Assembly (NCBI GenBank): GCA_947095585.1
Contig: OX352763.1
Location: 66,949,067 to 67,013,066, forward strand
Direction of reading: 5' to 3'
Source of the DNA: Nephrocerus scutellatus
Taxonomy: Eukaryota > Arthropoda > Insecta > Diptera > Pipunculidae
Length of the DNA stretch: 64,000 nt
The position numbers and the translations under genes are program-made. The notes beneath the pieces were generated by a model. It did no database searches, was not told the origin of the DNA, and worked only from the letters and a program-made list of their open reading frames with translations. Shown one piece after another: positions 2,062 to 61,345 of the stretch. Position 1 is the stretch's first letter. Each line of letters starts with the position of its first letter.

Positions 2062-2088
2062 CTTCGGCGGAAAGACACTTGCGCTTCA

Positions 2089-3306: not shown

Positions 3307-3307
3307 C

Positions 3308-3860
3308 TGTTTAGACCCAAGTTACTTTACTTGGATAGGATCTTAGGTACATAAACCTAGATCTGATTGAGGTATGATACACTTAGTTCAAACCAAGTGT
3401 ATCCAACGAATCCTAAAACGTCAAGTAAAAGAGTTCTAGTTTGGTAGGTAGATTAATAACGACTTCGTTTATTCATTAAAATTTGACTCAATTTATACAA
3501 AAATTACTTACAATATAAATACGAATACAATACAAATAACAATACAAATAACAAACTGCTTCGTTGCATATTCCGCTAAGCAGAAAACAGAACAGAAATT
3601 GCAGCGATAACAAAAGTATGTTCCCAACATACTCCATTTACCAAAGGTAGAGATAAAGTATGTTCGCAACATGCTCTCGTTACAAAAATGTGAACTTCGC
3701 CCAAGGTGCTAACGACAGCCGAAATGCAATGCTGGCAAAATCGGCAATGTGGGAAATTCATTCTTCTCACGATAGGAGAAAATGCAATGTAAGCATAATT
3801 TGGCATTATGCTGCGATTGTCGTCTGCCTGATATGAGCTACCTTGAACGAGAGTTCAACA
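3308..3860 (-). repeat. 3' LTR of the env-bearing BEL element
   Basis: On the minus strand it starts TGTTGAACTC and ends TCTAAACA (TG...CA). It matches 9825-10362 closely. Differences include an extra 13-bp unit in an acaatacaaata stretch and a few substitutions or small indels. A GCGGGGCAGAA purine tract lies immediately upstream (about 3861-3871). Confidence 0.9.
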
Positions 3861-5357: not shown

Positions 5358-5430
5358 AATTATTCCTAGCTGCCACTACATTGGCGGTAAGTTATCGTCC
5401 TTTATGACAACTAACATCCCAGGAGTAGCG

Positions 5431-6375
5431 TTATCTTGCTGGCTTCGCACATTTATTTCGATGCTGTAGCTCACATAGATATTCGTGTGACCAGCGCTGC
5501 CAAAATTGTGACTTTATGGCGGCGATTGTTCTCCATCGATAATTAAGGCTGGTGTTTAACTTTGCTGATCTAGCATCGATTGTGGATGTTAAGGGTTCTC
5601 CAATCAGGAAATGTCCTGGAGTCAGCGAAGAGAGATCGTTGGGATCTGAAGACAGAGACGTTAGTGGTCTTGAATTTAGAATTGCTTCTATCTCTATCAT
5701 CAGTGTCTCGAGTTCTTCATAGGTAAGATTAGCCGATAAGAGATTGCGTTTTAAAAAGTGCTTAGCTGATTTAACAGCGGCTTCCCATAAACCGCCGAAG
5801 TGTGGTGCTCGCGGTGGTATAAAATGGAATTGCATACTCCTCTCTGTGCAGAAAGATGCAATTTTTTCTTTGGATGCTGATGAATGTATGGATGGCTCTA
5901 TATACTCCAACTGATTTCGCGCTCCAACGAAATTTGTCGCGTTGTCGCAGTAAAGGTTTTGACGATTACCTCTTCTTCCTGTGAACCGTTTAAGTGCACC
6001 TATGAATGCTTCAGTAGTAAGATCGCTAACTACCTCAAAATGTGTTGCCTTCGTTGAGAAACAACAAAATACTGCCACGTAGACCTTCCGTGGTTGTTTC
6101 CCTCTTATTTTAAAGTGTACCCATCGAACACATTTTTGGACTACCGAACGAGCAAGTGTTTTTCCCTTGATGGGCCAATACTTCTGACGCACGGCTGCTA
6201 ACAATCCCTGTAGACCGACATGAAGATTGTTCTGGTGAATCTCTGTTATTATTAATTTTGTGAGATCGTGGTTACATGGGAGCAAGTTTGGGTGCTTCGC
6301 ATCATAGCTTAATGCTGATGATTCTAGACGACCTCCTACACGAAGTATTCCTTCCTCATCCACAAATGGTGACAA
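5431..6375 (-). pseudogene. pol: BEL/Pao integrase
   Basis: About 314 codons with typical BEL integrase order: an N-terminal LRVGGRLES motif, a zinc-binding region, the core with YCDNATNFVGA (second catalytic Asp) and FGGLWEAAVKSAK (region of the catalytic Glu), then a C-terminal segment with LSSLTPGHFLIGEPL. The segment around the first catalytic Asp of the core is disturbed: the zinc region runs directly into the stretch after it. It joins the RNase H region at 6376-6676 across stops. This is part of a broken pol; the enzyme would insert the cDNA into host DNA. Confidence 0.8.
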
Positions 6376-6675
6376 ACTCCTTAGTACGCTTTAATTTTGG
6401 ACATATTTTCCATCGGATAGTTGTTTTAGATCTTCCTTAAACACTTGATGTTGCACTTCTTTCATTATAACATTGTTGGCATGGCTTAGTTCGACCGACG
6501 ACGGATGGCCTGACAATCGTTTGTTCATATTACAAGTCTTGCAGTTGTATATAAATCATTCTTACATATGCAATAACCCTTTGTAATCGTGCAAACGAGT
6601 TTTGATGATGACGATTGATGACAATTCTAATCGTGGTATTGTTGTTGTCAGCGTGATTTCTCCGTCTATTCCTCT

Positions 6676-8862
6676 TTAAATTGGTGCTACTATTGATTTT
6701 GAACATAGTAAATGAACAGTTATTGTTTCATCGCTATAACTTGACCGAACATAGACGGCGCTTCCATAGGCCCTTCCAGAGGCATCGGCAAAAGCATGTA
6801 GTTGAATCCCCTTTGCAATTTTGTTATTAAAAATGTGTCTAGGGATCTTTATTTCCGTTATGGCGGCCAGATCCTTCCGAAATGTCTCCCAAGTTGTGTG
6901 CAATTCCATTGGAAGTGCGGCATCCCAATCGAAACCTTCCTTCCATAATTGCTGTATAAAAATCTTCGCTGTAATCGTTATAGGGTTGGCGATGCCCAAT
7001 GGATCAAAAATGTGAGCTATTTCTGATATTGTCGTTCGCTTGGTCGTCCGTTTATTAATTTGCAGGTTTGAATTAATTAACAGCTCATCTCGTTGCGGGT
7101 TCCAAAAAAGCCCCAATGTTTTTAGTGTAGGTGATTCCTTATCTCGAAAATCTGCTTGATTCACTTGATCCTGAGCTGGAATATGTTTCAGAAGATGCGG
7201 TGCATTGCTGCACCATTTGCGTAGAGTAAATCCGGCTGATTTCAGAATCTTTACTAACTGCCCTTGCATTTCAAGGGCTTCGGATATGCTATTAGCACCG
7301 GACATGGTCGATGTGCCTTCATCTACTTCTTTCATTCGCCAGAACTTCTCTACTATGTTATTGAGTAATTCATCTTCCGGGCATACTCCACATGTTGTGA
7401 TTATGGGAGCAAATCCAGGAACTCTTCCCGATACTATCCACCCAAGTACTGTGTTTTGCAAGATGGGCAAGTCGTCTGATAGTTTTATTTGTCCGACAGC
7501 AAGTAATTCGTGGTAAAATTCGGCTCCTAACAATAAATCGATTGTGCCTGGTCGGTTAAAATCTGGATCTGCTAAGTGGATATTAGCTGGAATTTTCCAT
7601 TTCGAAATATCCAGATACTGGATAGGTTGTGGTGAAATTATGTCCCTTAGGACAAATGCTTCGATTCTAGTGGTATAGGAACCTTTGTTTGATTGCATCG
7701 TTATGTTTACTCGGTAATTTGACACTTGCTTTTTATGGCCTATGCCTTCTATGATTAGTGAGTCCGATTTAGTTGTCAGCTTAAGTGCACGTACTATTCT
7801 TTGAGTAATAATGTTCACTTGTGAACCGGAATCTAATAGTACTCGGCAGTCTATTGTGTGATTATTATTACCAGTAATCTTGACCTTGGCCGTCCCTAGG
7901 AGCACAAATGGACGTTTCGGTTGGTTAAGTAGTGCACTAATAGCGAGATTTGGCTCATTCGATGATGTGCGATCTGTTGAGGGGTCTCCTCTCTTGGCTA
8001 CAATTGATTTCTTGGCTGGACGCCTGTTGTCTTGATCAATATGTAATAGTGTGTGATGTCTACCATTGCATTTTAAACAACTACTGGAACTGCAATTCGT
8101 CACAAAATGCCCCGATCGTAGACAATTGATGCATAAATCCCTTTGTTTTATGAGGTTTAATCGCCTTGAAGGTGTGAGCTCCATGAACCTTGGACATTTG
8201 TGTATGGGATGGTTGCCCTTGCAATTTAAAAAATTTGAATGGTGAGATGCAACTGCCAATAAAGTTTTGAGTCCTAACTTGTGCGATCGATTTTCATCTA
8301 GTTTGTCCTTAGTGTCAAGCGCCTCAAGTGATTGGAAAGGATTTTCCAGGAACTCGAGAAATTTCGTAAATGACGGAAGTTTTCGTGTATGGATCAGCGA
8401 TTGCTCATATAGCGTATGTGTTTCCCTATCCAGCTTTTTTACAAAAATGTGCAGCAATATTGGATCCCAGCTGCTCGTATCCAAGCCTAGGCCTTGCAAT
8501 CCTAGCAGAGATTCTTGAATTGAGTCATGCAGACTACGGATTGATTTTGCATTCCCAAGTTGCGAATTCGGATGGGATAACAATTTTCCCAACCATGATG
8601 CCACCAATAGACGTGGATTTTCATAGCGATCGGTCAGGATCTTCCATGCTGCCATATAATTAGCTCCTGATACGGAAAGATGTCGAATCAATTTTTCAGC
8701 TTCTCCCGTTACGCTAGATTTAAGGAACCATATTTTTTGTGCATCCGACATTTGTTGATTGTGAATCATCTCTGTATATAAATCGGAGAACTGCTGCCAT
8801 TTTAAATAGTTACCATCGAACTTAGGTAACTCAACCTTTGGCAATTTCATTGTAGTCATCAT
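6676..8862 (-). pseudogene. gag-pol: BEL/Pao gag-protease-RNase H polyprotein lacking the RT core
   Basis: 728 open codons. Residues 1-200 are BEL-type Gag (MKLPKVELPKFDGN start region). Zinc-binding motifs lie at about 214-274, including CX2CX4HX4C at 244-257 and a following CX2CX3-4HX3-4H. Protease has the DSG active site at about 344-346 (VLLDSGSQVNII). The frame then jumps from the start of RT (NIVEKFWRMKEV, about 506) straight to the RT thumb (SEALEMQGQLVKIL, about 527). The palm with its YVDD-type motif is lost in frame. RNase H starts near 690 (HAFADASG). The deletion leaves the frame open, which is unusual for a random loss. Confidence 0.85.
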
Positions 8863-9824
8863 CCATAAAGTCCTTCCAGTGACGTGGTTACACGTTGTTG
8901 CATATTGTAATACTCTTCGATATCATATTGACTTAATTCGTTCTCCAACCTTCGGTACATCAATGTCACGTCATTCCAGTTTTATTCCAAAGTATTAATA
9001 TGGATGCGATAGAACTGTTCCGATTTATTTTTATCTATAGGTTTGTCTTAAGATTTTGTCACAATTCCAACCACCAAATTATATCTTTGCCTAAGATTTA
9101 TTTGGTTATTTGATTGAAGCATTGGCTGTCCACCTGCTGGCTCCTTAGCCTCTTGAATGTTATCACTTTGCTCACGGATGTTATCACCTTGCAACATGCT
9201 CCCTTGCTCCCTTAAAGCGTCTGTTAATTTTTGTTCCATATCAGCTCTATATGATTCAGTTAATTTGAAGATTTGTGAATAGTAATCGGTCTTGAAATAG
9301 TCATTGTCCTTATCTCCAGCCCACGCTTATCCCTGATCACGCTGTCGTTTTTGTCGAAGTCATCCCAAAGTTTGCTTAGAAGATCCAAGCGGGACCTTAA
9401 GTAGGCCGATGTCTTCCTCTCTGAAGAATCCTTTTTGTAGTTCCTCCATTATTTAATAATGTGCTCTCCCAACTCTGCCTGTTGTTGGGTGTATTCATCA
9501 AGATCCATGTCGTAAAGTTATGGATGGATGCCGGAAACTCAATGAGTAATAGGTGTTGCGTTGTTGAATTGTGTTTGGCCCAATTCACGCCTTCGAAGCA
9601 CTCAAATTTTACTTTAATTAATGAATTGATAATTGATAAACTAATGTCTGAACTGTGTTTAGGCCCAGTTCACGCACTAGTCGTATGCTAAAAAACCCAA
9701 CGAAATGGGTGTGACGTCTGTCCCACACAATAGAGCCAACGAATATGGATATTACGTTAACAAAGTCCTACGCAATAGAGCCAACGAATATGGATATTAC
9801 GAGTACGTGGAAGTCCTGTCAAAT
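8863..9824 (-). other. Leader and Gag N-terminal remnant of the env-bearing BEL element
   Basis: Between the 5' LTR and the main gag frame. 9048-9239 holds a 63-codon fragment (EQKLTDALREQG...) that may be the Gag N-terminus, cut from the main frame by stops. Near the LTR, caatagagccaacgaata recurs at 9728 and 9773 (45-bp spacing). No other gene is seen. Confidence 0.5.
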
Positions 9825-10362
9825 GTTTAGACCCAAGTTACTTTACTTGGATAGGATCTTAGGTACATAAACCTAGATCTGATTGAGGTATGATACACTT
9901 AGTTCAAACCAAGTGTATCCAACGAATCCTAAAACGTCAAGTAAAAGAGTTCTAGTTTGGTAGGTAGATTAATAACGACTTCGTTTATTCATTAAAATTT
10001 GACTCAATTTATACTAAAAATTACTTACAATACAAATACGAATACAATACAAATAACAAACTGCTTCGTTGCATATTCCGCTAAGCAGAAAACAGAACAG
10101 AAATTGCAGCGATAACAAAAGTATGTTCCCAACATACTCCATTTACCAAAGGTAGAGATAAAGTATGTTCGCAACATTCTCTCGTTACAAAAATTTGAAC
10201 TTCGCTCAAGGTGCTAACGACAGCCGAAATGCAATGCTGGCAAAATCGGCAATGTGGGAAATTCATTCTTCTCACGATAGGAGAAAATGCAATGTAAGCA
10301 TAATTTGGCATTATGCTGCGATTGTCGTCTGCCTGATATGAGCAACCTTGGAGAGTTCAACA
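9825..10362 (-). repeat. 5' LTR of the env-bearing BEL element
   Basis: 538 bp, TG...CA on the minus strand, matching 3308-3860. Directly followed by the ACATC target duplication and then by the interrupted gag of gypsy copy 1. Confidence 0.9.
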
Positions 10363-10367
10363 ACATC

Positions 10368-11407
10368 AATTGTGGTCTTTGACAACTTCGTCAGGTGTGT
10401 CCGTCCTGGCCGCAGCGTCGACATGCCGTTCGAACGTTGATACGCTCCTCCTGACTCTCTGTGACCAGAAGGTTCCTCTCGATCGGTCGGGACTGGGGCC
10501 TGGGTGCTTGTCGGATTGGTTCTGGGCTGGGAGAGATATTTTCCAGGTCTTCTGCTAACCCAATTAGCTCCTGCAGATCTTGGAAGTCTCTCCTCCGTAT
10601 ATACAGTTGGTATTCCTGACGACAGTTTCGGAATATACGCTCCAACTGTTGTGCCCTTGAATATCCTGCATGCCGCGTGAGGTTTTGTATGGCGATGACG
10701 AAATCCTTGAAGTTTTCTTCGGGTCTTTGTCGTCGTCAACGGATTTCGTCATCTAATTGTTCCTGGTACCTTGCTGGGAGGAAGAAGCGAAAGAAGTCTT
10801 CCTTGAATGCGTGCCAGTTTGTCCACCGCTGGTTGTTGTTTCGAAACCAAACCAGGGCTCGGTCACGCAGCAGTTCTGGCATTGTCCTGGCCAGGAGGTC
10901 CTTGCTTAAGGAGTAGGTGTCGGCCAATTCCTCCAACCGCTCGATGAAGGTGATCGGGTCTTTCCCGCCATCATACCGCACGGGCAACTTCCTCACCGTG
11001 TCAATGACCATTGGGTATGACGCCGAGGCTGTCTCTTCCGCTTGATGGGGTGGCATTGCGACTTGCGATTCCCAGGACCTTGTGTTGCTTGCTACGGTTT
11101 CCTTGATGTCATGTGCCGGTGTGTTCCCGTGCGGTGCCAAAGCTGTTGCACCGGTGGTCTTCCTTTCCTTTTGTGTGTCGTCTGGTGTTAGGATCACTGG
11201 CGGTGACGGTGATGTGCCGCGTCGGTGCTTCGCTTCCAGTTCGGCCAGCCGAACCTCATCTTCTGACGTTACGTCACGTCCTGAGATGTAGGTTACGAAG
11301 CGCTTCCTCAACTCTTCCACTCCACCGGAATTGTCCAACCTGAATTCGGCCATGTAGGTTTGCAGCTCCTCTTTTGAAAGGGTATATACCCAGCTTGTCT
11401 TGACCAT
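10368..11407 (-). pseudogene. gag: Gag N-terminal and middle part, gypsy copy 1
   Basis: Starts with ATG at 11407 (MVKTSWVYTLSKEEL). Residues ~9-42 fit a SAP-like helix-extended-helix motif (EELQTYMAEFRLDNSG...ELRKRF). A capsid-like region follows (RYDGGKDPITFIERLEELAD...LLRDRALVWFRNN). An in-frame TGA at 10736-10738 and a second at 10391-10393, inside the first zinc knuckle (CRRCGQDGHT*), break it. After the nested BEL insertion the same frame resumes at 3306. The intact relative has Gln and His at the positions of the two stops. Gag would form the particle shell; this copy cannot make it whole. Confidence 0.85.
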
Positions 11408-26105: not shown

Positions 26106-26530
26106 TTATGTAAAGATTTGATCTTTAAACACGTTGATTGGGGTTTCTATTGATGGAATAAGGAGATGTGATGAACTTTCATCACTGTGGCATGTACCTG
26201 TTAGGGAATTAACTTCTTGATATAATGGGGGTCTAGAGAGTGCGTAATTAATTTCTTGATATAATGAAGGTGTAGAGAGTGCGTCAGCGCCTACGTTTGA
26301 TTCGCCTGGTTTGTACCTAATTTCGTAACTATATTCTTCTAGTGCACATTTCCATCTTTTCATTTTACTGTTTGTATTTTTCAGTCAGTGGTTGGTGGTC
26401 TGTGAAAATTATTACTTTTGAAGTTCCATATAAATATGTTCGAAGGCTATTTAGTGCTTAAGTTATGGCTTACAATTCTCGTTCATTAGCAGCATAATTT
26501 TCTTCGGTTTCTGAGAGAGTACGAGAGATG
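26106..26530 (-). pseudogene. pol: Errantivirus RNase H remnant
   Basis: The open piece 26106-26363 has MKRWKCALEEYSYEIRYKPG and NVGADALS, the end of the gypsy RNase H. The preceding part is readable but broken by stops up to about 26640. Confidence 0.75.
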
Positions 26531-26677
26531 AATGTTATCGGCTTTCCTTCCTGTTAAAAGACTGCGCCTATAGCGAAGTTCGAAGCGTCTGTTGTGCGGT
26601 GAAATTCTTTATTGAAAGATGGGTATGAAAGGATAATATCGTCTGAAGTCAATGACTTTTTTATTTTTCAAATGCGT

Positions 26678-27752
26678 CTATTGCTTCGGGGTAAGTTTTA
26701 TGAGTTTTTTAATTGAAGAGTGTTTGGAGACAGGTCCGTCCTTCCCTCTTAAAAGGGCTGTCAGTGGTTTTGCGAGTTTCGCATAGTCTTTTATAAGTCT
26801 TCTGTAGTATCCTGACAGACCGAGGTACGATCTCAAATCTTTAAGTGTTTTAGGAAGTGGGAAATTTGTAATGGCAACTACTTTTTTTTGGTTTGTTCTT
26901 ATTCCTGTGCATGAGATTACAAAACCTAAGAATTCAACTTCTGTTTTTAAAAATTCACATTTATCGAGTTGAACTTTCATGTTTGCGTCACAAAGGGTTT
27001 TGAAAACTTTTTCTACGTTTTATAAATGTGACTTTTCGTCTTTTCCGAAAATAATAGTGTCATCTATATAGACGTAGCATATCGTACCGATATGTTCACG
27101 CAATGTGTCGTCGAGAGCACACTGAAAAATTGCCGGAGCGTTCTTCAGACCGAACGGAAGTCGTGTAAACTCGAATTTGGCGTTATTAACAGAAAATGCA
27201 GTTTTTTCAATGTCAGATTCCTTTAATGGAATTTGATGAAATCCGCTTTTCAAGTCAAGTACAGTAAAAAATGTATTTCCTCCTAGTTGTGCTTTAACTT
27301 CATTTATCTCTGGAATGGGATATCTGTCGGGAATTGTCACACTGTTTAGTTTTCTGTAGTCTATGACCAATCTATAATTTTTTCACCGGATGCGTCCAGT
27401 TTTTTGGGTACAAACCACACAGGTGAATTTTAAGGAGATTTAGATGGTCGGATAATTTTGTTATCAATTAGAGTTTGAATTTCATTCGTTACATAGTCTT
27501 TAAGAGACATGGGATATGGATAGTGTTTCGAATATATAGGGTCATCTGTCGTGGTCTGATTTCTCCTTTTACTGTTGTTGTATAAGTAAGTTTTTCATCG
27601 GGGTCTGTGAATAAGTTAGGAAAATTTTTAACAAGATTCAAAAGTTCCTGTTTTTGGTTGGTGGCTAAATGATCGGTTCGTATATTTATGGAATTAACGG
27701 AGTCTGTAAAGAACTGTTTTATTGGAATGTTTCTACCATTTTTAATGACCAT
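26678..27752 (-). pseudogene. pol: Errantivirus reverse transcriptase, frameshifted
   Basis: 27489-27752 is the region before the RT fingers. 27020-27370 has VIDYRKLNSVTIPDRYPIP, VLDLKSGFHQI (first Asp), LPFGLKNAPAIFQ and the YVYIDDTIIF catalytic box (YIDD), all intact. 26678-26980 is the thumb (KCEFLKTEVEFLGFV, LRSYLGLSGYYRRLI). Stops and shifts separate the pieces. Confidence 0.85.
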
Positions 27753-36799: not shown

Positions 36800-37681
36800 A
36801 ATTGCTGTAAAAAATCTGTGCACATGATCGAAGTACGACTGTTAAATTTGGAGACATCCTTTAAAGAAGCTAGGCTTCTTCACCAGAAAATTGTTGGGTT
36901 CCCTAGTGAAGATGCAAAGACTGAATACATGGAGGCACTCACGTTTCATAAATTGAAGGAACTGTTCTTTAATTATTCTAGCGAATTAAATGAACAGTTA
37001 GCAGCCACCGATAATCAAGGCTGCCTTAATAATTCAGTCGCTGCGTCCAAGTCACCGTCGGTTGAATTAAAGCTTCCGGCAATGAAGCTACCAACTTTTG
37101 ACGGCTCCCTACAGCGACAAGAGGTTGCAAAGATAAAGAAATTGTGCTTCAACTGTTTGTCAAGCGCACATTTCACGCAAAACTGCACAAGCACCTTTAC
37201 GTGTTCTGTCTGCCACCAAAAGCATCATTCGTTACTGCACATGAATGAGTCAGTCAACGCAATGCATGCCAATGAACCTGCTCCAATGGGAGATGTGATC
37301 CATGGAGCAGACTCCAAAGCAGAAGCCATGGAGATGCAGTGGCAGCTGACAACAATGTTAAAGCAAGGAGGCTTTCCACTACGCAAGTGGGCAAGTAATT
37401 GTTAAGAATTGTTGGCATCCATTCCAGAGATTGATAGAGAAGTAAAGGTACCACTTTCATTTGACGCAGGCAATGAGATGAAAACGCTAGGGATCCAATG
37501 GCATCCAGCAAAGGATACCTTCACCTTCAAGGTCTCACTGCAGGACTCAAGGAAGACGACAAAGAAAACAATCCTTTCAGACATTGCGCGGCTGTACGAT
37601 CCAATGGGTTGGATTTCTCCGTGTGTCATTGTGGGTAAGATTTTAATGCAAGATATCTGGAAGGAAAAGCAAACATGGGAT
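36800..37681 (+). pseudogene. gag-pol: BEL gag and RT-thumb fragment, internally deleted
   Basis: 36822-37405 is open: Gag helix (EVRLLNLETSFKEARLLHQK), KLPTFDGSLQ, then a jump to a zinc knuckle CFNCLSSAHFTQNC (CX2CX4HX4C) and CSVCHQKHHSLLH. It then jumps to the RT thumb (KAEAMEMQWQLTTMLKQGG) and ends at TAA 37402-37404. 37409-37681 continues the region after the thumb (MKTLGIQWHPAKDTF, LSDIARLYDPMGWISP). Protease and RT palm are deleted. Confidence 0.8.
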
Positions 37682-38103
37682 TCTTCGAGCCTTTCAATGA
37701 ACTGAAGAGGTTCCTTCCCTCCATCGTACCTTACCGACCATTTCCTTACTTGGTCCATTATCTGGGCGTATGATATAGTCGCCGTCTCGGTCCTGTTTCG
37801 TGTCAGAGCTACTTCAGATAGTATCGGCGATGCTGCTCTGATGGCTGGCTTTGGATCGTCGCTCCCTCTAGCTTCCGATGGGTCCAAAGTTAGTAGGGGA
37901 AATGACGATGGGCTGCGTCTGTGTCTCTCTTCTAATTCGCTTAGGCGTGTTTCGTCCTCAGACGTGACGTCTCGTCCTGAGACGTATTTGGAAAATCTCT
38001 TCCTCAACTCTTCTAGCGCGCCGCTGTTGTCTAGTCTGAACTCGCTCATGTAGTTCTTCAGCTCTTCTTTCGATAACGTATATATCCAACTGGTCTTAAC
38101 CAT
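37682..38103 (-). pseudogene. gag: Gag N-terminus, gypsy copy 2
   Basis: ATG at 38103: MVKTSWIYTLSKEELKNYMS, with the same SAP-like helix pair as copy 1 (EFRLDNSG..ELRKRF). It runs to VRYDGGKEPLQFIERLEE, then passes at the junction near 37682 into BEL sequence, which extends the open frame by about 90 foreign codons. No inactivating stop before the junction. Confidence 0.85.
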
Positions 38104-51681: not shown

Positions 51682-51685
51682 ACCT

Positions 51686-53266
51686 TGTAACGCGGTAAAT
51701 GCCGGGGTACGCTCGCAGGCGTCCAGGGTCGTTTGCCTATTAACTAATAAGCCGTTGTTTTCGTTACAAAATTTTTCTTTATTGACTCCGTAAAATTTGG
51801 TTGAATATTTAGATTATAATGATTAAATTGATCTCCTTTTTGATTTGATTTACTTTGTTTTGCCTGGTTTCGCTTTGGGGTTTCTCCTTGTTCTTCTGCC
51901 GTCTTCTCCTTGTTCTTCTGCCGTCACACCTAGTTTTGCTTCGGGGTTTCTCCTTGTCGTTCGTTGGCCGCTGACTCGGGTCTCGTAATGACGTGGTACT
52001 GGCAAGAACTTTGATTCGCACTTCAGGCGCCTTTAAGGGGAATTGGTCCCTACGGGATTTAGTCGGAAGGAGCAGGTCTTTCACCACTCGCTTCCTGCTA
52101 AATGGGAAAACTAGGCCCTACGAGGGATCGAAACTCAAGATGGAGTCCTATAAGGCCCGCCAGAGTCCTGAGTTCGAAGGGTTTCTGCCTAGCAGAGGGG
52201 AATCTCTCCCTATCGAGGTTTTCAAAGTCTCGAGATGGAGTCCTATAAGGCCCGCCAGAGTCTCAAGACAAAGAAAGGGGTTTCTGAACTAGATTTAATA
52301 GGGAGAAGCAGATCTTTCACTGTTCGCTCTCTACTAAATGGGAAAACTCGGCCCTACGAGAGATCGAAACTCAAGATGGAGTCCTATAAGGCCCGCCAGA
52401 GTCCAGAGTTCGAAAGGTTTCTATCTAGCAAAGGGGAATCTCTCCCTATCAAGGTTTTCAAAGTCTCGAGATGGAGTCCTATAAGGCCCGCCAGAGTCTC
52501 GAGACAAAGAAAGGGGATTCTAGACTAGCACTACTATTGGGAAATTTGGCTCACCTGATTCCAGCGCCGACCAACGTTAATTGTCCTGTACCACGCCTTT
52601 AAAATTCCTCCGTCATTAGCTTCGTGGGTAGTTCTCATTTAATTATGTTGTTCGGGTGTCTCGCTTGCGGTGAATGTCCGGTAGTTGTCGATGCGGCTGA
52701 TATCTCCTCAAGGCGTTTAAATTTTTCACTGTTCACTTACCGTCTCTGGTGTCCCACTGTTGAAGTGAACAGTCTCACTGATGCAGACAAAAAGAGACCA
52801 ATTCTTCATGTGTTTCACCTTTTATAACCTTTGCCTCTAGGTTGGCTTTGCATCTTTGTGGGCTTGTGGCGTTGTAGTTCTCTCATCTCTCTCGTGTTGT
52901 TGGTGGTTTTCTCTTGTAACAGACCGCTTGGGTTTTTTCCATTTGGCATTTGCTCACCTCCGTTACTTCGTACATACTTGTTTGCATGCACGTGTTGTGT
53001 TGCTACGCTGTGTTTATTTGCATGCAGGCGCTGTGTTGCCATGCTGTATTCGTTTGCATGCATGCTTTGGTTAGCGCTTGTTGATTTTTTTCCTTCGTGC
53101 GTGCGTGCCCTGCTGTACTTGTTTGTACGCACGTGTTGTGTTGCTACGCTGGGCTTTTTGCATGTATTTTATCTCCGTGCGTGCACAGTGAGTGTAACGA
53201 AATTGTTGTTAGTGCGTGCAGTGGGTTGTTAGACGAAAATTGGTTATTAAAATTTTCGTCGTTACA
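51686..53266 (-). repeat. 3' LTR of gypsy copy 3
   Basis: Minus strand TGTAACGACG ... CGCGTTACA. TATA box GGTTATAAAAGG at 52818-52829. A ~244-bp unit is present about twice (52071-52310 and 52306-52530), each with tggagtcctataaggcccgc twice. Differs from 59486-61066 at about four bases (for example near 51712, 52450, 52545, 52714). Confidence 0.95.
52818..52829 (-). promoter_or_regulatory. TATA box of gypsy copy 3 LTR
   Basis: GGTTATAAAAGG on the minus strand. The same box in the 5' LTR lies at 60618-60629 and would drive the genomic RNA. No start site mapped. Confidence 0.75.
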
Positions 53267-54743
53267 CTCCCCCCTTACTACCGGTGAATGTGACCTTTGC
53301 TTCTCCTTGGCGACTGAGCTGTATTTTCACCCTTTTTCCACCGATGAATCGCTGGAACGACATTGATTTGCCTGGGACATGGTCTCTGCGTGCCTGCTCC
53401 ACTATGTCTTCGAGTTCCTCCTCCGGTGTTTCCGCTTCTCTGCGCCTCTTGTGTGCCCTGCACCCTCCGTCGCCTTGTTCGCCATCCTTAGTGTGGCTGA
53501 GGTCGTGTTTGTCGCTGGGGTTGATGCCTTGTCCGTGGTTGTTGCTGAGGTCGTTGCCAGATGGGTTGATGCCTTGTCCGTGGTTGTTGCTGAGGTCGTT
53601 GCCAGAGGGGTTGATGCCTTGTCCGTGGTTGTTGCTGAGGTCGTTGCCAGATGGGTTGATGCCTTGTCCGTGGTTGTTGCTGAGGTCGTTGCCAGAGGGG
53701 TTGATGCCTTGTCCGTGGTTGTTGCTGAGGTCGTTTCCAGATGGGTTGATGCCTTGTCCGTGGTTGTTGCTGAGGTCGTTGCCAGAGGGGTTGATGCCTT
53801 GTCCGTGGTTGTTGCTGAGGTCGTTTCCAGATGGGTTGATGCCTTGTCCGTGGTTGTTGCTGAGGTCGTTGCCAGAGGGGTTGGTGCCTTGTCCGTGGTT
53901 GTTGCTGGGGTCGTTGCCAGATGGGTTGTTTTGGGTGTGTTCGTTTGTCGACAGGAATCGAATGAGTGCCCTTATCTCCTCTCTCTTCTCACTTATAACC
54001 TCGTGTTGGAACCAGTCACTTCGGTCATCCGAGTATTCTCGCATAGGCTGTTCCAAGAAGGATTCCACGAACTGCAGAAGGTACACCCCACAATCCGTAG
54101 AATTTGGTTGTTGCGGGGTCCTGACGTGGAATGCAGGTACCGTTCTTTCGCCGAACTCGACTGGTGCTGCTTCGGGAAATTTTGCCACGAACTCTCGCCT
54201 GAGGTAGCCACGAATAATCTCGACCGCGTGGTTGCGCAGGTTGCTAGCCAACGAGTCGAAAACGAGGATAGCCGGCCGGCCACCTTTTTCCCGTATGGCG
54301 TCTCCTGGGTTGCAAATGATTATGAGGTACCAGTGTTTGTTCTCGTTCACCGGCACGATCACATGTGCTTTCCCGAAGATATCCAGCTTCCTTGTCCATC
54401 GGCGCACTCCGTCATGTCGTTCGGTCTCGCTTACCCCTCCACTGGCCAGTCGGGAATAGAAGAAGGTACTAAAAATATGTAGTCGGCTCCTATCCTCCTC
54501 TGAAAGTCGAAGATCGGCGACCCATCGAAGGTAGAAGTCGATGATGGCGTCGTTCAGGAACTTGCCTGGTCCCAACCTTCGGTACTCCTCCTTGCCGATA
54601 CAGATCCCGCCTTGTCCTTGGGGATACCGCACCGAGAAATCTTGGGCTTCTACTCTCTCTGGCACTTCCACAACATTTGGGGCCTCATCGATCCTGACTT
54701 GGTTGAATGCTGCGCTTACTTCCCAAATTGTTGTTTTCTCCAT
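53262..54743 (-). CDS. SENP6/7 (Ulp2)-type SUMO protease encoded by a retrotransposon (third ORF)
   Basis: 493 codons, ATG at 54743, stop at the LTR edge. Residues ~54-265 form a C48 cysteine protease domain: LGPGKFLNDAIIDFYLRWV, FSTFFYSRL, KLDIFGKAHVIVPVNENKHW (His137), LVFDSL (Asp163), PQQPNSTDCGVYLLQF (Gln212, Cys218) and WFQHEVISEKREEIR. His, Asp, Gln and Cys are all present, and the Gln-Cys spacing of six equals that of SENP enzymes. The FYLRWV, VPVNE-HWYL and DCGVYLLQFVES signatures point to the SENP6/7 branch, which removes SUMO chains. Then nine 15-residue repeats (about 273-407) and a tail with a basic KRRR (432-435). It begins 275 bp after the pol stop, in the place of env. No signal peptide or membrane segment. 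Likely a captured host gene; expression route (spliced RNA?) unknown. Confidence 0.93.
   Translation of the reverse strand: MEKTTIWEVSAAFNQVRIDEAPNVVEVPERVEAQDFSVRYPQGQGGICIGKEEYRRLGPGKFLNDAIIDFYLRWVADLRLSEEDRSRLHIFSTFFYSRLASGGVSETERHDGVRRWTRKLDIFGKAHVIVPVNENKHWYLIIICNPGDAIREKGGRPAILVFDSLASNLRNHAVEIIRGYLRREFVAKFPEAAPVEFGERTVPAFHVRTPQQPNSTDCGVYLLQFVESFLEQPMREYSDDRSDWFQHEVISEKREEIRALIRFLSTNEHTQNNPSGNDPSNNHGQGTNPSGNDLSNNHGQGINPSGNDLSNNHGQGINPSGNDLSNNHGQGINPSGNDLSNNHGQGINPSGNDLSNNHGQGINPSGNDLSNNHGQGINPSGNDLSNNHGQGINPSGNDLSNNHGQGINPSDKHDLSHTKDGEQGDGGCRAHKRRREAETPEEELEDIVEQARRDHVPGKSMSFQRFIGGKRVKIQLSRQGEAKVTFTGSKGGV
53267..53276 (-). promoter_or_regulatory. Polypurine tract of gypsy copy 3
   Basis: AAGGGGGGAG on the minus strand, directly before the LTR. 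It overlaps the last codons of the third ORF, whose TAA stop lies in the first bases of the LTR. Confidence 0.85.
53523..53930. repeat. 45-bp coding minisatellite, nine units, in the third ORF
   Basis: Nine exact-period 45-bp units (each with gccttgtccgtggttgttgc) encode NPSGNDLSNNHGQGI. Units alternate between two variants at their ends (ccagatggg and ccagagggg), so the true unit of growth seems to be a 90-bp pair. All plus-strand frames are open across it too; those are shadows. Confidence 0.93.
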
Positions 54744-55017: not shown

Positions 55018-58000
55018 TTATTTTTGGTTGCGTGCCTTACTAACCTTTTCCATGGCCTCGATCATACATTTCTTCTGTTCATGGTGGCTCGGCGGTATAT
55101 CGTGGTATATCTTCACGTCGCTGACATGAGCGGTTCGCTCCTTTCTTTCTCCTTCCTTGGTTAGCACTAGAATTACGGGTGATTTGAAGGATTCTATGCG
55201 GTATGGTCCTTCATACTTTGGTGCCAGTTTCGCGTTAAAGTTCTCGCTTGCTTTGGACAAATGATGTTGTCTCACCCAGACCATTTGTCCTATCGATGGA
55301 GCCCAGGGACGTCTTCGCAAGTTATAATGCCTTGCCTGGTCTTGCGCTGCCCGCTCCATATTATGCCGCACAATTTGGAACACCTCTTGCAGACGTGAAG
55401 CCTTGTTTGTCGGTGTCACTGTCGTTTTCATCGTTACTGTAGCGGGGGTTACTTCGTCGTACAAGGTTTTTGGGAGCCGTGGCTCGCGTCCTTGTAACAA
55501 GAATGCTGGGCTGAACCCGGTTGTTTCAGACTTCGCAGTGTTTATCGTCAACATTATTTCTGGAAGCTTCTCGTCCCAAAGCCGCTGATCGGCACCCAGG
55601 AGTTGTGCGATGATCATCTTGACTGTCCGGTTGGTCCTTTCTGTTGGGTTCTCTTGTGGCGTGTATGGTGCCGTGAATTGTTGCCGAATTCCCATTTCGC
55701 GCATAAATCGTTGGAAACCTCGAGCTGTGAATTGGGTTCCGTTATCGGTAACAAGAACCTTAGGTATGCCAAATCGCGCCAGAATACGTTCCCTGAATGC
55801 CTTTTGCACTCCTTCTGCTGTGGCTGTGCGTAGTGGTATCAGCTCTGTCCATTTGGAGAACTTGTCGAAGAAAACCAGTAGCATAGTGTTGCCATGTTTT
55901 GAACGAGGGAAGGGTCCCATGAAGTCTGCGCACAATATCGACCAAGGTTCTTCTGGTACTTGCGTCAGCATTTTTCCTGCTGGATGCTGCTGACCCGGCT
56001 TAAAGCGTTGGCAGACTTGGCATTTGTTGACGTGTCGCCGGATATCGCGAAACATCCCTGGCCAATAGTACCTGCCGCATACTCTCTCCGTCGTCTTCCG
56101 AACACCCATGTGTCCAGCTGTTGCATCGTCATGGTTCTCACGCATCACCCTGTCACGGCAATGGGTCGGCACACAGAGCTTCCATGGGGCACAATCGTCG
56201 TCGCCCGCTTGTCTGTGTATGTGACGGTACAGCTGTCCATTTTGCATTGCATAGTCCGGAAATTTCTCTGGTTTCTCTAGTGCTTCCGCTATCTTCCGCT
56301 TGATCCAGCCACATTCCTGTCGTTCGGGCGGAGTATCAGCCACCCGGGCGAATACTTCTAGGGGTTGTCGCGATAAAGCGTCAGCAATCACGTTCAGTTT
56401 GCCTCTGCGGTATTGGATATCGAAGCTGTATTGCTGTAGTTCCAATGCCCACCGTGCGATACGTCCTGCGGGGCTTTCGATCGAGTTGAGCCACTTCAGA
56501 GAAAGATGGTCCGTAATTACGCTGAACCTGTAACCTTCTAGGTAGGGCCTCATCTTCCTGATCCCCCATACGATCGCTAAGCATTCCTTCTCTGTTGGGG
56601 AGTAGTTGATTTCGGCTTTATTCAGGTGACGGCTGGCGTAGGCGATAACTTTTTCGTGGCCATTTACCTCTTGCGTAAGTACTGCCCCCAAACCATAGTC
56701 GCTGGCGTCTGTTTGTAGGGTGAACTTTTGGGTAAAGTCTGGGCATGCCAGTACCGGTGCCTCTGTGAGCCTCAATTTGAGCTTATCGAAAGCCTCTTGC
56801 TCTTGTTCTGTCCACTTCCAATGTTTTCCCTTCTTGAGCAGACGTGTGAGTGGGTGGACGACATTGGAAAATTCTGGTACGAAACGCCAGTACCACGAAG
56901 CGATTCCCAAGCAGCGGCGCAGCTCCCGAACGTTCTTTGGTGGTTGCAGTTCCCGTATGGCGGCTACTTTCTCCGGGTCTGTGTGAATCCCTTCTTCACT
57001 AACGACGTGTCCGAGGTATTTAAGCTCTTTTTTAAAGAATTCACACTTTTCTAGATTAATCTTGAGGTTTGCTGCTCGCAATCGCCGGAAAACTTCCCTC
57101 AGATTCTGCATGTGGTGCTCTAACGTATTTCCAACCACGATAATGTCGTCCAAATAGGCAAATGCGTGGGGTTCCATTTCCGAGCCAATAACCTGATCTA
57201 GCGCTCGTTGAAAGGTGGCGGGCGCTGAGTGTAGGCCAAATGGCATGACCCTCCATTGAAATAATCCACGACCCGGGACTGTGAACGCTGTGAACTGTTT
57301 GCTTCCTTCGTGCATCGGGATTTGCCAGTAACCATTTTTTAGGTCCAGACTGCTGATATAGTTTGCGTTCCTCAACTTGTCTAGGATGTGGTTGATTCTG
57401 GGTAGCGGGTATGCGTCTGGGACGGACTTGGAATTAAGCTGTCGGTAGTCGATGCAAAGCCTCCACTTTCCTGTCTTCTTTCGTACTAGCACAATAGGGG
57501 CGCTGTAGGGGCTGTGCGATGGCTCAATACATCCTTTACTCAATAGTTCGTCGACTTCCGCGTTGATTATTCCCTGCATTGCTGGATTCTTGGGAAAATA
57601 CCGTTGCTTAACGGGGCGATCATCAGACAATATGATTTTGTGGCTGGCTATGACTGTCGTTCCTTGTAACCTCTCAAACTTGGGCAATTCCTCATCTAAA
57701 AATGACTTGATTAACTCGCCTTCATCCTCTATGTTCCTGACCATGGTAAGCTTGGTGACTCCTTCCTGAAATCTGCTTCCACTGGTGTTATCTAACGAGA
57801 GTGATGAACCTCCGCAGCTCATGACAAGTCCAAGTTGAGCTAGACAGTCCATTCCCAGCAGCACGTCGTCTATCGCTCCTGGTAGTACTAGAAAAAAAGT
57901 TTGACATCGCGCGGTTCCTAATTTCACTTCGACATCAATGCAGTTGTGAATTTCCCTCGGGGTTCCGTCGGCCATACGTGCAATTATTTTCGTCGATCGT

Positions 58001-58233
58001 GGTTTGGTCTGGAACTGTCCCCGCTTTTTGATGAAATCCTCACTAGCAAAACTTCGTGTTGCCCCCGTGTCTATGGTTGCGATCGCCGGTGTACCGTTGA
58101 GGGTTACATGCGCGTATACCCGGCTCGCGTCTTGCTTGAGAAATCCTACTGTCTTCGAGGCATCGTTGTCCGAGGTCCGGATGTGCCCCGCTCGTTCCGG
58201 TCCCCTCTTGCGTTTCCCGCGTTTAACCTGCAA
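55018..58233 (-). CDS. pol: Pol polyprotein: protease, RT, RNase H, integrase
   Basis: 1071 codons without a break; it has no ATG at its start, in line with synthesis by -1 frameshifting from gag. Protease DTG at 55-57 (ATIDTGATRSF). RT: Asp297 in SSLDLKNGYWQ, FGLHSAPATFQRAL, and AYLDDIIVV (YLDD, 360-363). RNase H: Asp509 (LQTDASDYGLGAVLTQ), Glu550 and Asp575. Integrase: His701, His708, Cys738 and Cys741 zinc site; Asp770, Asp830 and Glu865 with D35E spacing (TDNGTQF ... PTERTNR). A GPY/F-like C-terminal part follows (KLAPKYEGPYRIESF). All catalytic residues are kept, so this copy could supply enzymes. Makes and integrates the element's cDNA inside the particle and nucleus. Confidence 0.95.
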   Translation of the reverse strand: MQVKRGKRKRGPERAGHIRTSDNDASKTVGFLKQDASRVYAHVTLNGTPAIATIDTGATRSFASEDFIKKRGQFQTKPRSTKIIARMADGTPREIHNCIDVEVKLGTARCQTFFLVLPGAIDDVLLGMDCLAQLGLVMSCGGSSLSLDNTSGSRFQEGVTKLTMVRNIEDEGELIKSFLDEELPKFERLQGTTVIASHKIILSDDRPVKQRYFPKNPAMQGIINAEVDELLSKGCIEPSHSPYSAPIVLVRKKTGKWRLCIDYRQLNSKSVPDAYPLPRINHILDKLRNANYISSLDLKNGYWQIPMHEGSKQFTAFTVPGRGLFQWRVMPFGLHSAPATFQRALDQVIGSEMEPHAFAYLDDIIVVGNTLEHHMQNLREVFRRLRAANLKINLEKCEFFKKELKYLGHVVSEEGIHTDPEKVAAIRELQPPKNVRELRRCLGIASWYWRFVPEFSNVVHPLTRLLKKGKHWKWTEQEQEAFDKLKLRLTEAPVLACPDFTQKFTLQTDASDYGLGAVLTQEVNGHEKVIAYASRHLNKAEINYSPTEKECLAIVWGIRKMRPYLEGYRFSVITDHLSLKWLNSIESPAGRIARWALELQQYSFDIQYRRGKLNVIADALSRQPLEVFARVADTPPERQECGWIKRKIAEALEKPEKFPDYAMQNGQLYRHIHRQAGDDDCAPWKLCVPTHCRDRVMRENHDDATAGHMGVRKTTERVCGRYYWPGMFRDIRRHVNKCQVCQRFKPGQQHPAGKMLTQVPEEPWSILCADFMGPFPRSKHGNTMLLVFFDKFSKWTELIPLRTATAEGVQKAFRERILARFGIPKVLVTDNGTQFTARGFQRFMREMGIRQQFTAPYTPQENPTERTNRTVKMIIAQLLGADQRLWDEKLPEIMLTINTAKSETTGFSPAFLLQGREPRLPKTLYDEVTPATVTMKTTVTPTNKASRLQEVFQIVRHNMERAAQDQARHYNLRRRPWAPSIGQMVWVRQHHLSKASENFNAKLAPKYEGPYRIESFKSPVILVLTKEGERKERTAHVSDVKIYHDIPPSHHEQKKCMIEAMEKVSKARNQK

Positions 58234-59308
58234 CAGTCTTTAGTGCGAACATTTCTCCGGCCACATTCCCAGCAAAAAAGTCGCGTCTCGAATCTGCAAC
58301 CTCTGTGGAAATGCCCCTGTTGGCCACATCGGCGGCATGCCGTTCGTGGGTCAGTGAGAAACTCGGCGTCTGGTGTAATTCCACAGTGTATCGGCTGTGG
58401 GCTGCGTCTGTGTGTGACCGCAACCGGGTCTTTGTTTCCCCGAATCCTCTCGAAGTCCTCGGCCATTTCTATCAGCTCCTCCAGGTGATGGAAATCTCTA
58501 CGGCGTATGTATAGCTGGTACTCCTGCAGGGCGTTCTCGAATATGCGATCTAGCCGTTGTTCCTCGGTGTAGTTGGCGTGACGCATCAGTGTTTGGAGGG
58601 CGAGGACGAAGTCTTTGAAACACTCGCGAGGTTTTTGGTGCCGTTGTCGGATGTCGTCTTCTAATCGTTCTAGATAACGGTTCGGGAGAAAGAATTTCAT
58701 AAAGTCCCTTTTGAAATCGCTCCATCGCTGCCACTGTCGGTTGTTGTTCCTGTACCAAGCAAGCGCACGATCGCGTAACAGCTCAGGCATTGTTCGAGGC
58801 AAGAAGTCCTTTTCCAGATTATAAACATCAGCCAGCTCCTCCACGCGTTCAACAAATGCGAGCGATTCCTTTCCGCCGTCGAATTTTACTGACCACTTTC
58901 TCACTTGGTCGATGAGTGCAGGGTATTGGGATGTACGTTCATTCGAAATAACTTTTGTTTGACTCTCTCTGGATGGCTTTGGTACTCCTAAGCACGCTGG
59001 TCCCGTTAGCGGTGGGATTGGCGATGTACGTTCGTTTGGGGCGATTTTTAGCTGACTCTCCCTGGATGACTTTGGAATTTCTAGGCACGCTGGTCCCGTT
59101 AGCGGTGGGGTCGGCGAAGTTCGCGCATAACGTACCTCTAGTCCCTTCAGGCGGGCTATCTGATCTTCAGTGAGGCTTTCACTGTTGATGAGAGACGAAA
59201 ACCGTTTACGCAATTCCTCAACTGTACCACTTGCTTCCAAGCCGAATTCTTCCGCGAGTAACGAAAGTTCTCCCTTTTCAACTCGTAGACCCAACTTGTT
59301 TTTACCAT
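58146..59308 (-). CDS. gag: Gag of gypsy copy 3 (N-terminal one-base shift)
   Basis: The only good ATG is at 59308 (MVKTSWVYELK), matching the start in copies 1 and 2. The rest of Gag lies in another frame from about 59279 (KGELSLLAEEFGLEASG), so one base seems lost in the AAAAGGG run at 59272-59279. Features: SAP-like helix pair at the N-terminus, a 31-32-residue duplication (SPTPPLTGPACL... and SPIPPLTGPACL...), capsid-like part (KFDGGKESLAFVERVEEL, LLRDRALAWYRNNN), zinc knuckle CRRCGQQGHFHRGC and a degenerate second one (CWECGRRNVRTKDC, His replaced). It overlaps pol in the -1 frame. Forms the particle and binds RNA. Confidence 0.85.
58172..58218 (-). promoter_or_regulatory. -1 ribosomal frameshift signal between gag and pol
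   Basis: On the minus strand a GGGAAAC heptamer (58212-58218) is in the gag frame as G GGA AAC, the classical slippery form. Then a 6-nt spacer (58206-58211) and a stem-loop: GGGGACCGGA (58196-58205) pairs with TCCGGACCTC (58172-58181), 5 bp plus one mismatch plus 4 bp (one G-U), loop 14 nt. A slip here puts ribosomes exactly in the pol frame. Not tested experimentally. Confidence 0.85.
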
Positions 59309-59465
59309 TTTGGGATACTCTCTGCTAGATTTTCCTGAAGTTTTACACCCTCTTCCGTCGAATTATTATTACTTTTTTTTTTCTGATTATACTGCCTATT
59401 ATTAAGTTATATGTTATTTTTGTTTTTGTAAAACTTGACTCGGTTTTTTTTTTTTCTTTAACGGG
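59309..59465 (-). other. Leader between primer site and gag, gypsy copy 3
   Basis: 157 bp of A-rich non-coding DNA on the minus strand. It would hold the packaging signal and any splice donor, but no clear donor was seen. Confidence 0.5.
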
Positions 59466-59483
59466 GTCCCTGTTCGGGCGCCA
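59466..59483 (-). promoter_or_regulatory. Primer binding site, gypsy copy 3
   Basis: TGGCGCCCGAACAGGGAC on the minus strand, the canonical site complementary to the 3' end of tRNA-Lys(UUU). Two bases from the LTR end. Confidence 0.9.
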
Positions 59484-59485
59484 GT

Positions 59486-61066
59486 TGTAACGCGGTAAAT
59501 GCCGGGGTACGCTCGCCGGCGTCCAGGGTCGTTTGCCTATTAACTAATAAGCCGTTGTTTTCGTTACAAAATTTTTCTTTATTGACTCCGTAAAATTTGG
59601 TTGAATATTTAGATTATAATGATTAAATTGATCTCCTTTTTGATTTGATTTACTTTGTTTTGCCTGGTTTCGCTTTGGGGTTTCTCCTTGTTCTTCTGCC
59701 GTCTTCTCCTTGTTCTTCTGCCGTCACACCTAGTTTTGCTTCGGGGTTTCTCCTTGTCGTTCGTTGGCCGCTGACTCGGGTCTCGTAATGACGTGGTACT
59801 GGCAAGAACTTTGATTCGCACTTCAGGCGCCTTTAAGGGGAATTGGTCCCTACGGGATTTAGTCGGAAGGAGCAGGTCTTTCACCACTCGCTTCCTGCTA
59901 AATGGGAAAACTAGGCCCTACGAGGGATCGAAACTCAAGATGGAGTCCTATAAGGCCCGCCAGAGTCCTGAGTTCGAAGGGTTTCTGCCTAGCAGAGGGG
60001 AATCTCTCCCTATCGAGGTTTTCAAAGTCTCGAGATGGAGTCCTATAAGGCCCGCCAGAGTCTCAAGACAAAGAAAGGGGTTTCTGAACTAGATTTAATA
60101 GGGAGAAGCAGATCTTTCACTGTTCGCTCTCTACTAAATGGGAAAACTCGGCCCTACGAGAGATCGAAACTCAAGATGGAGTCCTATAAGGCCCGCCAGA
60201 GTCCAGAGTTCGAAAGGTTTCTATCTAGCAAAGGGGAATCTCTCCCTATCGAGGTTTTCAAAGTCTCGAGATGGAGTCCTATAAGGCCCGCCAGAGTCTC
60301 GAGACAAAGAAAGGGGATTCTAGACTAGCACTACTATTGGAAAATTTGGCTCACCTGATTCCAGCGCCGACCAACGTTAATTGTCCTGTACCACGCCTTT
60401 AAAATTCCTCCGTCATTAGCTTCGTGGGTAGTTCTCATTTAATTATGTTGTTCGGGTGTCTCGCTTGCGGTGAATGTCCGGTAGTTGTCGATGCGGCTGA
60501 TATCTCCTCAAGGAGTTTAAATTTTTCACTGTTCACTTACCGTCTCTGGTGTCCCACTGTTGAAGTGAACAGTCTCACTGATGCAGACAAAAAGAGACCA
60601 ATTCTTCATGTGTTTCACCTTTTATAACCTTTGCCTCTAGGTTGGCTTTGCATCTTTGTGGGCTTGTGGCGTTGTAGTTCTCTCATCTCTCTCGTGTTGT
60701 TGGTGGTTTTCTCTTGTAACAGACCGCTTGGGTTTTTTCCATTTGGCATTTGCTCACCTCCGTTACTTCGTACATACTTGTTTGCATGCACGTGTTGTGT
60801 TGCTACGCTGTGTTTATTTGCATGCAGGCGCTGTGTTGCCATGCTGTATTCGTTTGCATGCATGCTTTGGTTAGCGCTTGTTGATTTTTTTCCTTCGTGC
60901 GTGCGTGCCCTGCTGTACTTGTTTGTACGCACGTGTTGTGTTGCTACGCTGGGCTTTTTGCATGTATTTTATCTCCGTGCGTGCACAGTGAGTGTAACGA
61001 AATTGTTGTTAGTGCGTGCAGTGGGTTGTTAGACGAAAATTGGTTATTAAAATTTTCGTCGTTACA
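59486..61066 (-). repeat. 5' LTR of gypsy copy 3
   Basis: 1581 bp, same as 51686-53266 but for about four bases. TATA box at 60618-60629. The repeat units have the same number as in the 3' LTR, unlike copies 1 and 2. Confidence 0.95.
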
Positions 61067-61345
61067 ACCTTAAAGTTAAGGCTAGCATTTCTTCAGATGG
61101 TATCGCTAACCTCATGTTCGTATCTTGTCGCAAAATTCCACCTTTTACCTTCCATAGTAATTCTTCAAACGGTTCTTTCGACATACGGTAATAATTGAAA
61201 AAAATTTCAGGAAATTCCTTCAATTTAGGATGCCTCAAATAAAGATGACCGGTAAAATGTCTTTCGTTGTTTAGTGGATGTACCAAAAATTGTCTTTGCT
61301 TTCTTTCGTGTTTTATTCTTTTTGCAACACAGTATAAAAAAAAGC
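61067..61345 (-). pseudogene. PIF/Harbinger transposase N-terminal exon
   Basis: Reads QFLVHPLNNERHFTGHLYLR, FFNYYRMSKEPFEELLWKV and RQDTNMRLAIPSEEMLALTL, the conserved start of Harbinger (HARBI1-like) transposases up to the ALTLR motif. It then meets the gypsy element. Read across the insertion the frame meets TAA at once, but AG|GTAAAT there is a fair splice donor. The catalytic DDE part is not seen in the window. It could be an old transposon or a domesticated gene piece. Confidence 0.75.

Follow-up and report, generated by a model that had tools for sequence, protein, structure and literature searches.

A protease gene in the third position of a gypsy element

The window analysed here, a 64,000-nucleotide stretch of contig OX352763.1 (positions 66,949,067 to 67,013,066) from the fly Nephrocerus scutellatus, contains on its minus strand a long terminal repeat (LTR) retrotransposon whose third open reading frame (ORF3) encodes a protease of peptidase family C48 related to SENP6/7. 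The element shows the features of Ty3/gypsy, namely paired LTRs ending in TG..CA (TGTAACG..CGTTACA), a short target duplication, a tRNA primer-binding site, presumably of the tRNA-Lys type, and a polypurine tract, and its domain order is likewise that of Ty3/gypsy, with gag followed by aspartic protease (PR), reverse transcriptase (RT), RNase H (RH) and integrase (IN). The insertion is young, since its LTRs differ at 4 of 1581 positions, and ORF3 is the third gene of a complete element with the following features (window positions):

53262..54743, minus strand: ORF3, SENP6/7-type C48 protease with repeat linker and C-terminal tail (493-codon frame, Pfam, PDB, fold)
53976..54563, minus strand: Peptidase_C48 domain, residues 61-256 (Pfam, E 8e-34)
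54333..54335, minus strand: codon of catalytic His137, in KHWYL (alignments)
54255..54257, minus strand: codon of catalytic Asp163, in FDSL (alignments)
54108..54110, minus strand: codon of Gln212, in PQQPN (alignments)
54090..54092, minus strand: codon of catalytic Cys218, in TDCG (alignments)
53499..53924, minus strand: tandem 45-bp (15-amino-acid) repeats, numbering 5 to 10 in seven copies whose ORF3 is open
53265..53432, minus strand: C-terminal tail, predicted helix and three strands, aligning with the tails of families B, D and E and of P0047 (see below)
55018..58239, minus strand: pol, with aspartic protease, RT, RNase H and integrase, 1073 amino acids (Pfam)
58146..59324, minus strand: gag, overlapping pol in another frame (Retrotrans_gag, 5.9e-10)
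51686..53266, minus strand: 3' LTR, 1581 bp (sequence comparison)
59486..61066, minus strand: 5' LTR, 1581 bp (differs from the 3' LTR at 4 positions)
59466..59483, minus strand: primer-binding site TGGCGCCCGAACAGGGAC, two bases from the LTR
53267..53276, minus strand: polypurine tract AAGGGGGGAG, within the final codons of ORF3 and adjoining the 3' LTR
51682..51685, no strand: target duplication ACCT, left
61067..61070, no strand: target duplication ACCT, right

The original prediction had described a 493-codon frame bounded by pol, the purine tract and the LTR inside one target duplication. The frame is present as claimed, and pol, the LTR and the single ACCT duplication enclose it, but the purine tract does not lie beyond its end: the tract falls within the last codons, and the frame ends inside the 3' LTR, which supplies the second and third bases of the terminal Val codon as well as the stop codon. 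At its other end, ORF3 begins 274 nucleotides past the pol frame, in yet another frame. Each LTR also contains a 236-bp tandem duplication (52056-52527 and 59856-60327) with units approximately 90% alike.

By scores and fold, ORF3 groups with SENP6/7 among the C48 proteases

Peptidase_C48 is the single Pfam domain of ORF3 (117.8 bits against a curated cut-off of 20.7), and the C48 domains of three related families in the same genome (B, D and E) likewise exceed the cut-off. The envelope glycoprotein that characterizes the third ORF of Errantivirus is not what Pfam detects in ORF3, where it shows C48 alone. The predicted catalytic set of His137, Asp163, Gln212, which presumably contributes the oxyanion hole, and Cys218 is found at these positions and is invariant across a seven-row alignment of transposable element (TE) sequences. 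Once host-type proteins are added, in a 21-row alignment, H137, Q212 and C218 still do not vary, and D163 is among the positions conserved in at least 90% of rows.

The best PDB match of ORF3 is human SENP7 (2.4e-40, 142 bits), followed by Ulp2 (6.2e-20, 75 bits) and then by SENP1/2 at 6e-17 or weaker (SENP1, 65 bits). SENP7 is also the top PDB match for the C48 domains of family B (2.8e-23) and family E (1.2e-15), in both cases ahead of SENP1/2. An AlphaFold2 model based on a 21-sequence alignment has block-wise predicted local distance difference test (pLDDT) scores of mostly 80-93 across the domain, with lower values near residues 141-160 and 231-250. Foldseek, run with the model of the window's own family (A) alone, places the SENP7-SUMO2 structure 7r2e first (E 7.6e-22, target template modelling score 0.86), then Ulp2, then SENP2/5/3/1. 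By scores and fold, ORF3 belongs to the SENP6/7 (Ulp2) side of C48. To this extent the predicted grouping stands, but in a tree with long branches a clade joining the TE rows with one SENP3b row is not rejected by the approximately unbiased (AU) test (p 0.234).

ORF3 shares the catalytic domain, the H-D-Q-C set and the fold of host SENP6/SENP7/Ulp2 (velo in Drosophila) but, unlike these, is carried by a retrotransposon, has a short N-terminus and continues into a linker and tail of the element. The conserved insertions described for SENP6/7 catalytic domains (PMC4281951) are absent, and the gap between the two stretches matched to SENP7 measures 7 residues in ORF3 versus 60 in SENP7. Because the large insertion is gone, we refer to the protein as SENP6/7-derived rather than as a SENP6/7 orthologue. 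It is a putative deSUMOylase, that is, a protease acting on the small ubiquitin-like modifier (SUMO), an activity that we infer from sequence and fold.

Six families of gypsy elements carry C48

ORF3, searched against the source genome (613 Mb, 9 contigs), gave a list of 105 matches, with 87 of 1038 candidates scored. Gypsy pol lies close to C48 in 38 of the 39 loci that were read (L001-L036 and L048-L050, with the window copy as L001 and with L039-L047 outside the count), which excludes a chance association. Loci L001-L020 match ORF3 at 79-100%, and 19 of the 20 have gypsy pol within 1.5-kb flanks; at L020 an LTR is present and no pol lies within reach. A further 14 places match at only 29-39% identity, yet in frames of 377-561 amino acids, and pol was found in 16/16 when these and the intermediate L035 and L036 were fetched.

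The C48-bearing loci form six families, A to F, with pol 58-68% and C48 33-39% identical to those of the window. Family B comprises 12 loci (L021-L032), whose pol shares mostly 62-70% identity with that of the window. In one B copy, numbered along L021 and the adjoining L037, the LTRs lie at 1304-3245 and 9514-11064, and the target duplication is GTAT, with a primer-binding site of the same type as the window's. Stops are present in L033 and L034 (family C), L035 and L036. In A, B, E and F, the copies that were read have C48 in an ORF of its own, which follows pol in E (L049, pol broken) and in F (L050, locus cut at both ends), whereas the one copy of family D that was read (L048) has gag and then a single 1743-amino-acid frame PR-RT-RH-IN-C48-tail. 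A later C48 search of the genome (139 matches, 522 candidates, 139 scored; frame counts by eye) placed 24 matches in 475-codon frames, 22 of them stop-free across the match, and 8 in frames of 1243-1774 amino acids. We note that C6:14434385-14435806 and C6:16507475-16508905 lie in frames of 1743 and 1774 amino acids with both pol and C48 matches, of which the first was read.

All four catalytic residues are kept in nine TE rows (families A-E and P0047), and family F retains KHWYL, YDSL, PQQTN and ECG. The residues were checked codon by codon in 24 loci (L001-L020 and L033-L036; the first two positions are not covered in L018), and 7/8 young C48-bearing A copies keep all four.

P0047, encoded on an ENA contig of 6409 bp, has the same gypsy PR-RT-RH-IN-C48-tail arrangement in one 1483-amino-acid frame with the catalytic set kept, but differs in that its pol is 56% and its C48 approximately 30% identical to the window's. 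Its C48 matches window ORF3 best (86.0 bits), followed by a Timema SENP6/7-like protein (81.2) and family B (43). Among the 120 pol relatives listed from a total of 4403 (with 7974 candidates scored), P0047 alone has PF02902, and 1/120 is a lower bound because a C48 encoded in a separate ORF is invisible in pol proteins. The named pol relatives include sequences from Eurosta, Drosophila and Musca, and further down also from bees and an ant. Protein searches with ORF3 itself listed 6 and 23 proteins (7995 candidates scored in the second), SENP6/7-like or other C48, none of which is recognisable as a TE protein. A scan of viral contigs with the ORF3 alignment gave no relative, and the phage-record matches to ORF3 (20 rows listed) cover residues 264-431, the repeat region. 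In one SENP6/7-like protein, P0001 from the spider Oedothorax gibbosus (575 amino acids), the beginning of the catalytic domain is repeated several times.

The C48 domain is under purifying selection

Ratios of nonsynonymous to synonymous change (dN/dS) were calculated by the Nei-Gojobori method, with B and D-F on a codon alignment. For C48, the family A pairs of the window with L009, L011 and L013 give 0.248, 0.215 and 0.262 (Fisher p 5.8e-7, 3.3e-9 and 3.8e-7), and the family B pair L021-L022 gives 0.13 (6.5e-11), with 0.05 for its tail. The comparison of D with F yields pN 0.198 and pS 0.74 (6.4e-35), at which pS is saturated. Other A pairs with stops (L004, L010, L012, L014 and L020) range from 0.25 to 0.44. 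Pol has values of 0.195 and 0.192 for the window with L009 and L011, and the L013 pol row has 0.67. Thus C48 is under purifying selection, and neutral decay across the copies, an outcome against which the original prediction was to be checked, is ruled out in both A and B (p at most 5.8e-7).

A probable old capture beside a possibly older tail

The best genome match to the Timema SENP6/7-like protein is located at C5:1810646-1811032 (51%, other listed matches 50% or less), with a second piece of host-type SENP6/7 nearby (L038). The two separated pieces are taken as exons and the C5 gene as the host's own SENP6/7, which is 53% identical to Timema. The TE C48 domains are 26-42% identical to it. 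In the C48 tree, the TE rows of the source genome (A-E) form one clade (87/98, rough bootstrap) and the host row pairs with Timema (86/88), with P0047 unplaced. A recent capture from this host is unlikely, given this identity and the separate clade, and the earlier suggestion that the element took up an enzyme of its own host is not borne out. The final C48 tree was built without Candida_Ulp2, P0023, SENP3b, Timema_gen, Nerophis, Hemibagrus, A_L011 and B_L027, and also without F; P0002, P0004, P0013-P0015, P0019 and P0021 were left out of all trees. Earlier C48 trees had long branches for Candida, SENP3b and P0023.

The pol tree (35 rows) took in P0047, four tail-bearing relatives and 23 other listed pol relatives, and its outgroup does not form one side of a branch. 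It places A, B, C, D-E-F and P0047 in one 26-row clade (99/99) whose backbone does not resolve, and pairs C with P0024 (92/93).

Residues 274-415 of ORF3 consist of about nine 15-amino-acid tandem repeats, and among seven copies (L001-L003 and L005-L008) the number of units varies from 5 to 10 with the frame unbroken. The last approximately 55 residues form the tail, for which a single-sequence model has a pLDDT of 81.6 and a fold search gave no match at 0.001 or below. When a tail profile (A, B and P0047) was run over 143 fetched proteins, P0061 was found (E 0.005) and P0087 fell just over the threshold (0.011), the best reversed-sequence match being 1.9. A second round including both found P0039 (1.2e-8), and the match of P0055 is weak (0.035). 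P0061, P0087 and P0039 are gypsy pol proteins without C48 among their listed Pfam domains. The tail therefore seems to have a wider distribution than C48, which may have been inserted next to a pre-existing tail. In addition, family B has the stretch SIVLSSDEEED directly ahead of C48, a candidate SUMO-interacting motif by its resemblance to such motifs, and the consensus of the host-type proteins contains PIVLSS.DEE.

A proposed role against SUMO-dependent silencing

Fly transposons are silenced partly via SUMO, and a SUMO protease encoded by an element would be a direct counter-weapon. A Drosophila screen found SUMO pathway components to be needed for TE repression and named Su(var)2-10 and SUMOylated Panoramix (PMC9406493). 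SENP7 acts on SUMO chains; a link to KAP1 and HP1 has been proposed for it, as has a role in chromatin relaxation via KAP1 (PMC4281951). An element that produced an enzyme of the SENP7 type would thus be in a good position to weaken silencing.

We suggest that a gypsy group long ago took up a SENP6/7 (Ulp2-type) catalytic domain, now intronless, between the integrase and the ORF3 tail and kept it as a standing third gene, fused into the pol frame in the D copy read. The protein would be made, be active as a deSUMOylase and reach the nucleus, where it would act on silencing factors bound for the element, Su(var)2-10 or Panoramix for instance, by removing their SUMO or SUMO chains, and would thereby lower repression guided by PIWI-interacting RNAs (piRNAs). 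We put the probability of the whole chain, from capture through a kept active protease to an anti-silencing target, at roughly 0.5. Within it, the anatomy together with an active and selected protease is highly probable, and an old capture kept as an active deSUMOylase is the most likely interpretation of the sequences, its target being a matter of inference. More tentatively, the families may represent an animal LTR radiation that has, in a SUMO-chain protease derived from SENP6/7, a standing anti-silencing gene against SUMO-dependent piRNA and heterochromatin repression, with copies lacking C48 living off the enzyme of intact copies. One enzyme and one Cys mutant would make the anti-silencing idea testable.

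Several observations weigh against this proposal. In the final C48 tree, all nine TE rows form one clade in only 14% of 200 bootstrap trees, although such a clade is not rejected (AU p 0.39; 0.33 in an earlier tree with Candida among the TE rows and 0.39 in the next), bootstrap support has not settled, and long branches meet there (B with D-E). Nor does the pol tree unite the C48 families (AU p 0.062 for the C48-bearing rows as one clade), and therefore a single gain followed by losses, repeated gains, and recombination are all still compatible with the trees. Catalytic positions have been lost in some copies, with Asn163 in L003 and Phe218 in L013, although the C48 stretch is open in both, and with Glu137 and Tyr218 in the decayed L036, which is thus without His and Cys; E and F have ECG in place of DCG. 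The tail has higher dN/dS, 0.57 and 0.56 in the pairs of the window with L009 and L011, on 9 and 12 changes.

The expectation that other copies of the family carry ORF3 holds only in part. A search with the pol C-terminus (150 of 2947 candidates scored) was paired with the ORF3 matches, giving 51 window-like pol rows against 91 of the 105 ORF3 rows (the 14 divergent ones left out), and 27/91 ORF3 rows found no partner among the listed pol rows. C48 is present in 8/16 young A copies (98% or more identity) and C48 or part of it in 19/35 older ones, besides the five further families, but only linker and tail occur in 8/16 and 9/35, and 7/35 of the older copies have no ORF3 match among those listed. 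Since the eight young copies without C48 have amplified, C48 is dispensable in cis for recent movement. Env is likewise dispensable in cis in many gypsy copies, and supply in trans would reconcile the C48-less copies with long-term selection. The two such young copies that were read (L051 and L052) differ in their internal deletions, whose joins show overlaps of 12 and 5 bp, and lack an in-frame ATG ahead of the remaining repeats; the pol frame spans at least 1073 codons in 6/8 C48-less young copies. Thus, enzyme-bearing and enzyme-less forms coexist within one family. We note a further window-family copy without C48, at C3:40602276-40603408, where a 1229-amino-acid pol frame overlaps the repeat-tail match and pol may run into it.

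Among the alternatives, the protease could serve the element's own proteins, by deSUMOylating Gag, IN or RT or by cleaving the polyprotein. In D (L048) and P0047 the C48 domain within the pol frame would be made, and perhaps packaged, with Gag-Pol, so that it may act inside particles, and supply in trans would fit the C48-less copies here as well. However, the element already encodes an aspartic protease, and SENP6/7 and Ulp2 are described as SUMO-chain editors with weak processing activity (PMC4281951), which leaves this explanation rather unlikely. Another ubiquitin-like modifier as substrate, or a non-proteolytic role, would be compatible with the shortened His-Asp region of ORF3 and with the matches to a NEDD8 protease and to bacterial enzymes of the same fold. 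These matches are weaker, however, and SENP7 ranks first by sequence for A, B and E and by fold for A, making such a role improbable.

Still less probable is a passenger, a captured host sequence of no use to the element, with which the amplified C48-less copies, their differing deletions and the catalytic losses in L003 and L013 would agree; against it stand dN/dS well below 1, the many open frames and catalytic residues kept at such low identity to the host gene. The idea that C48 is no element gene at all, being either a host SENP gene or the product of an assembly join next to a gypsy copy, found no support and is refuted by the repeated arrangement, since one target duplication encloses LTR-gag-pol-ORF3-LTR in A and again in one B copy, and host-type SENP6/7 sits elsewhere, in two pieces on C5.

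Relation to other mobile elements

C48 domains also occur in the DNA transposons Ginger1, Mutator and Crypton, where the domain is called Ulp1. In Ginger1 it is fused with the transposase, and a role in transposition was suggested by the authors who described Ginger (PMC2836005, PMC3212892). Among animal retrotransposons, NeSL and Utopia-1_TSP have a Ulp1-like cysteine protease, but these are non-LTR elements, nematode in origin, with the domain at the N-terminus (PMC4640811). Env-bearing gypsy elements share the LTR-gag-pol-third ORF-LTR layout (PMC7264820). The third ORF of the window element is instead a protease, and Pfam does find Baculo_F in the env frame of a Pao-type element of the window. 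The gypsy env slot can thus be occupied long-term by an enzyme that is not an envelope protein. An LTR element with a C48 gene was not found among the papers listed in searches of the open-licence literature (15 of 533 and 10 of 14 for two of them), with subscription papers and Repbase outside that scope, in keeping with the original suggestion that none is known from an animal, and the words protease, ULP and SUMO do not appear in the main text of a review on the extra ORFs of plant LTR elements (PMC7264820). The novelty is an LTR element with a captured gene, for a type of protease that other classes of TE are known to carry.

Other elements in the window

The Pao/BEL-type element is located at 4545-8922 on the minus strand, with Peptidase_A17 and integrase-like domains in split frames, and its env frame is Baculo_F-like (7.8e-11). 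Other gypsy fragments lie at 2851-3309, 10379-11380, 37681-38076 and 26214-27418, and share 36-63% identity in gag and 35-40% in pol with the element described here.

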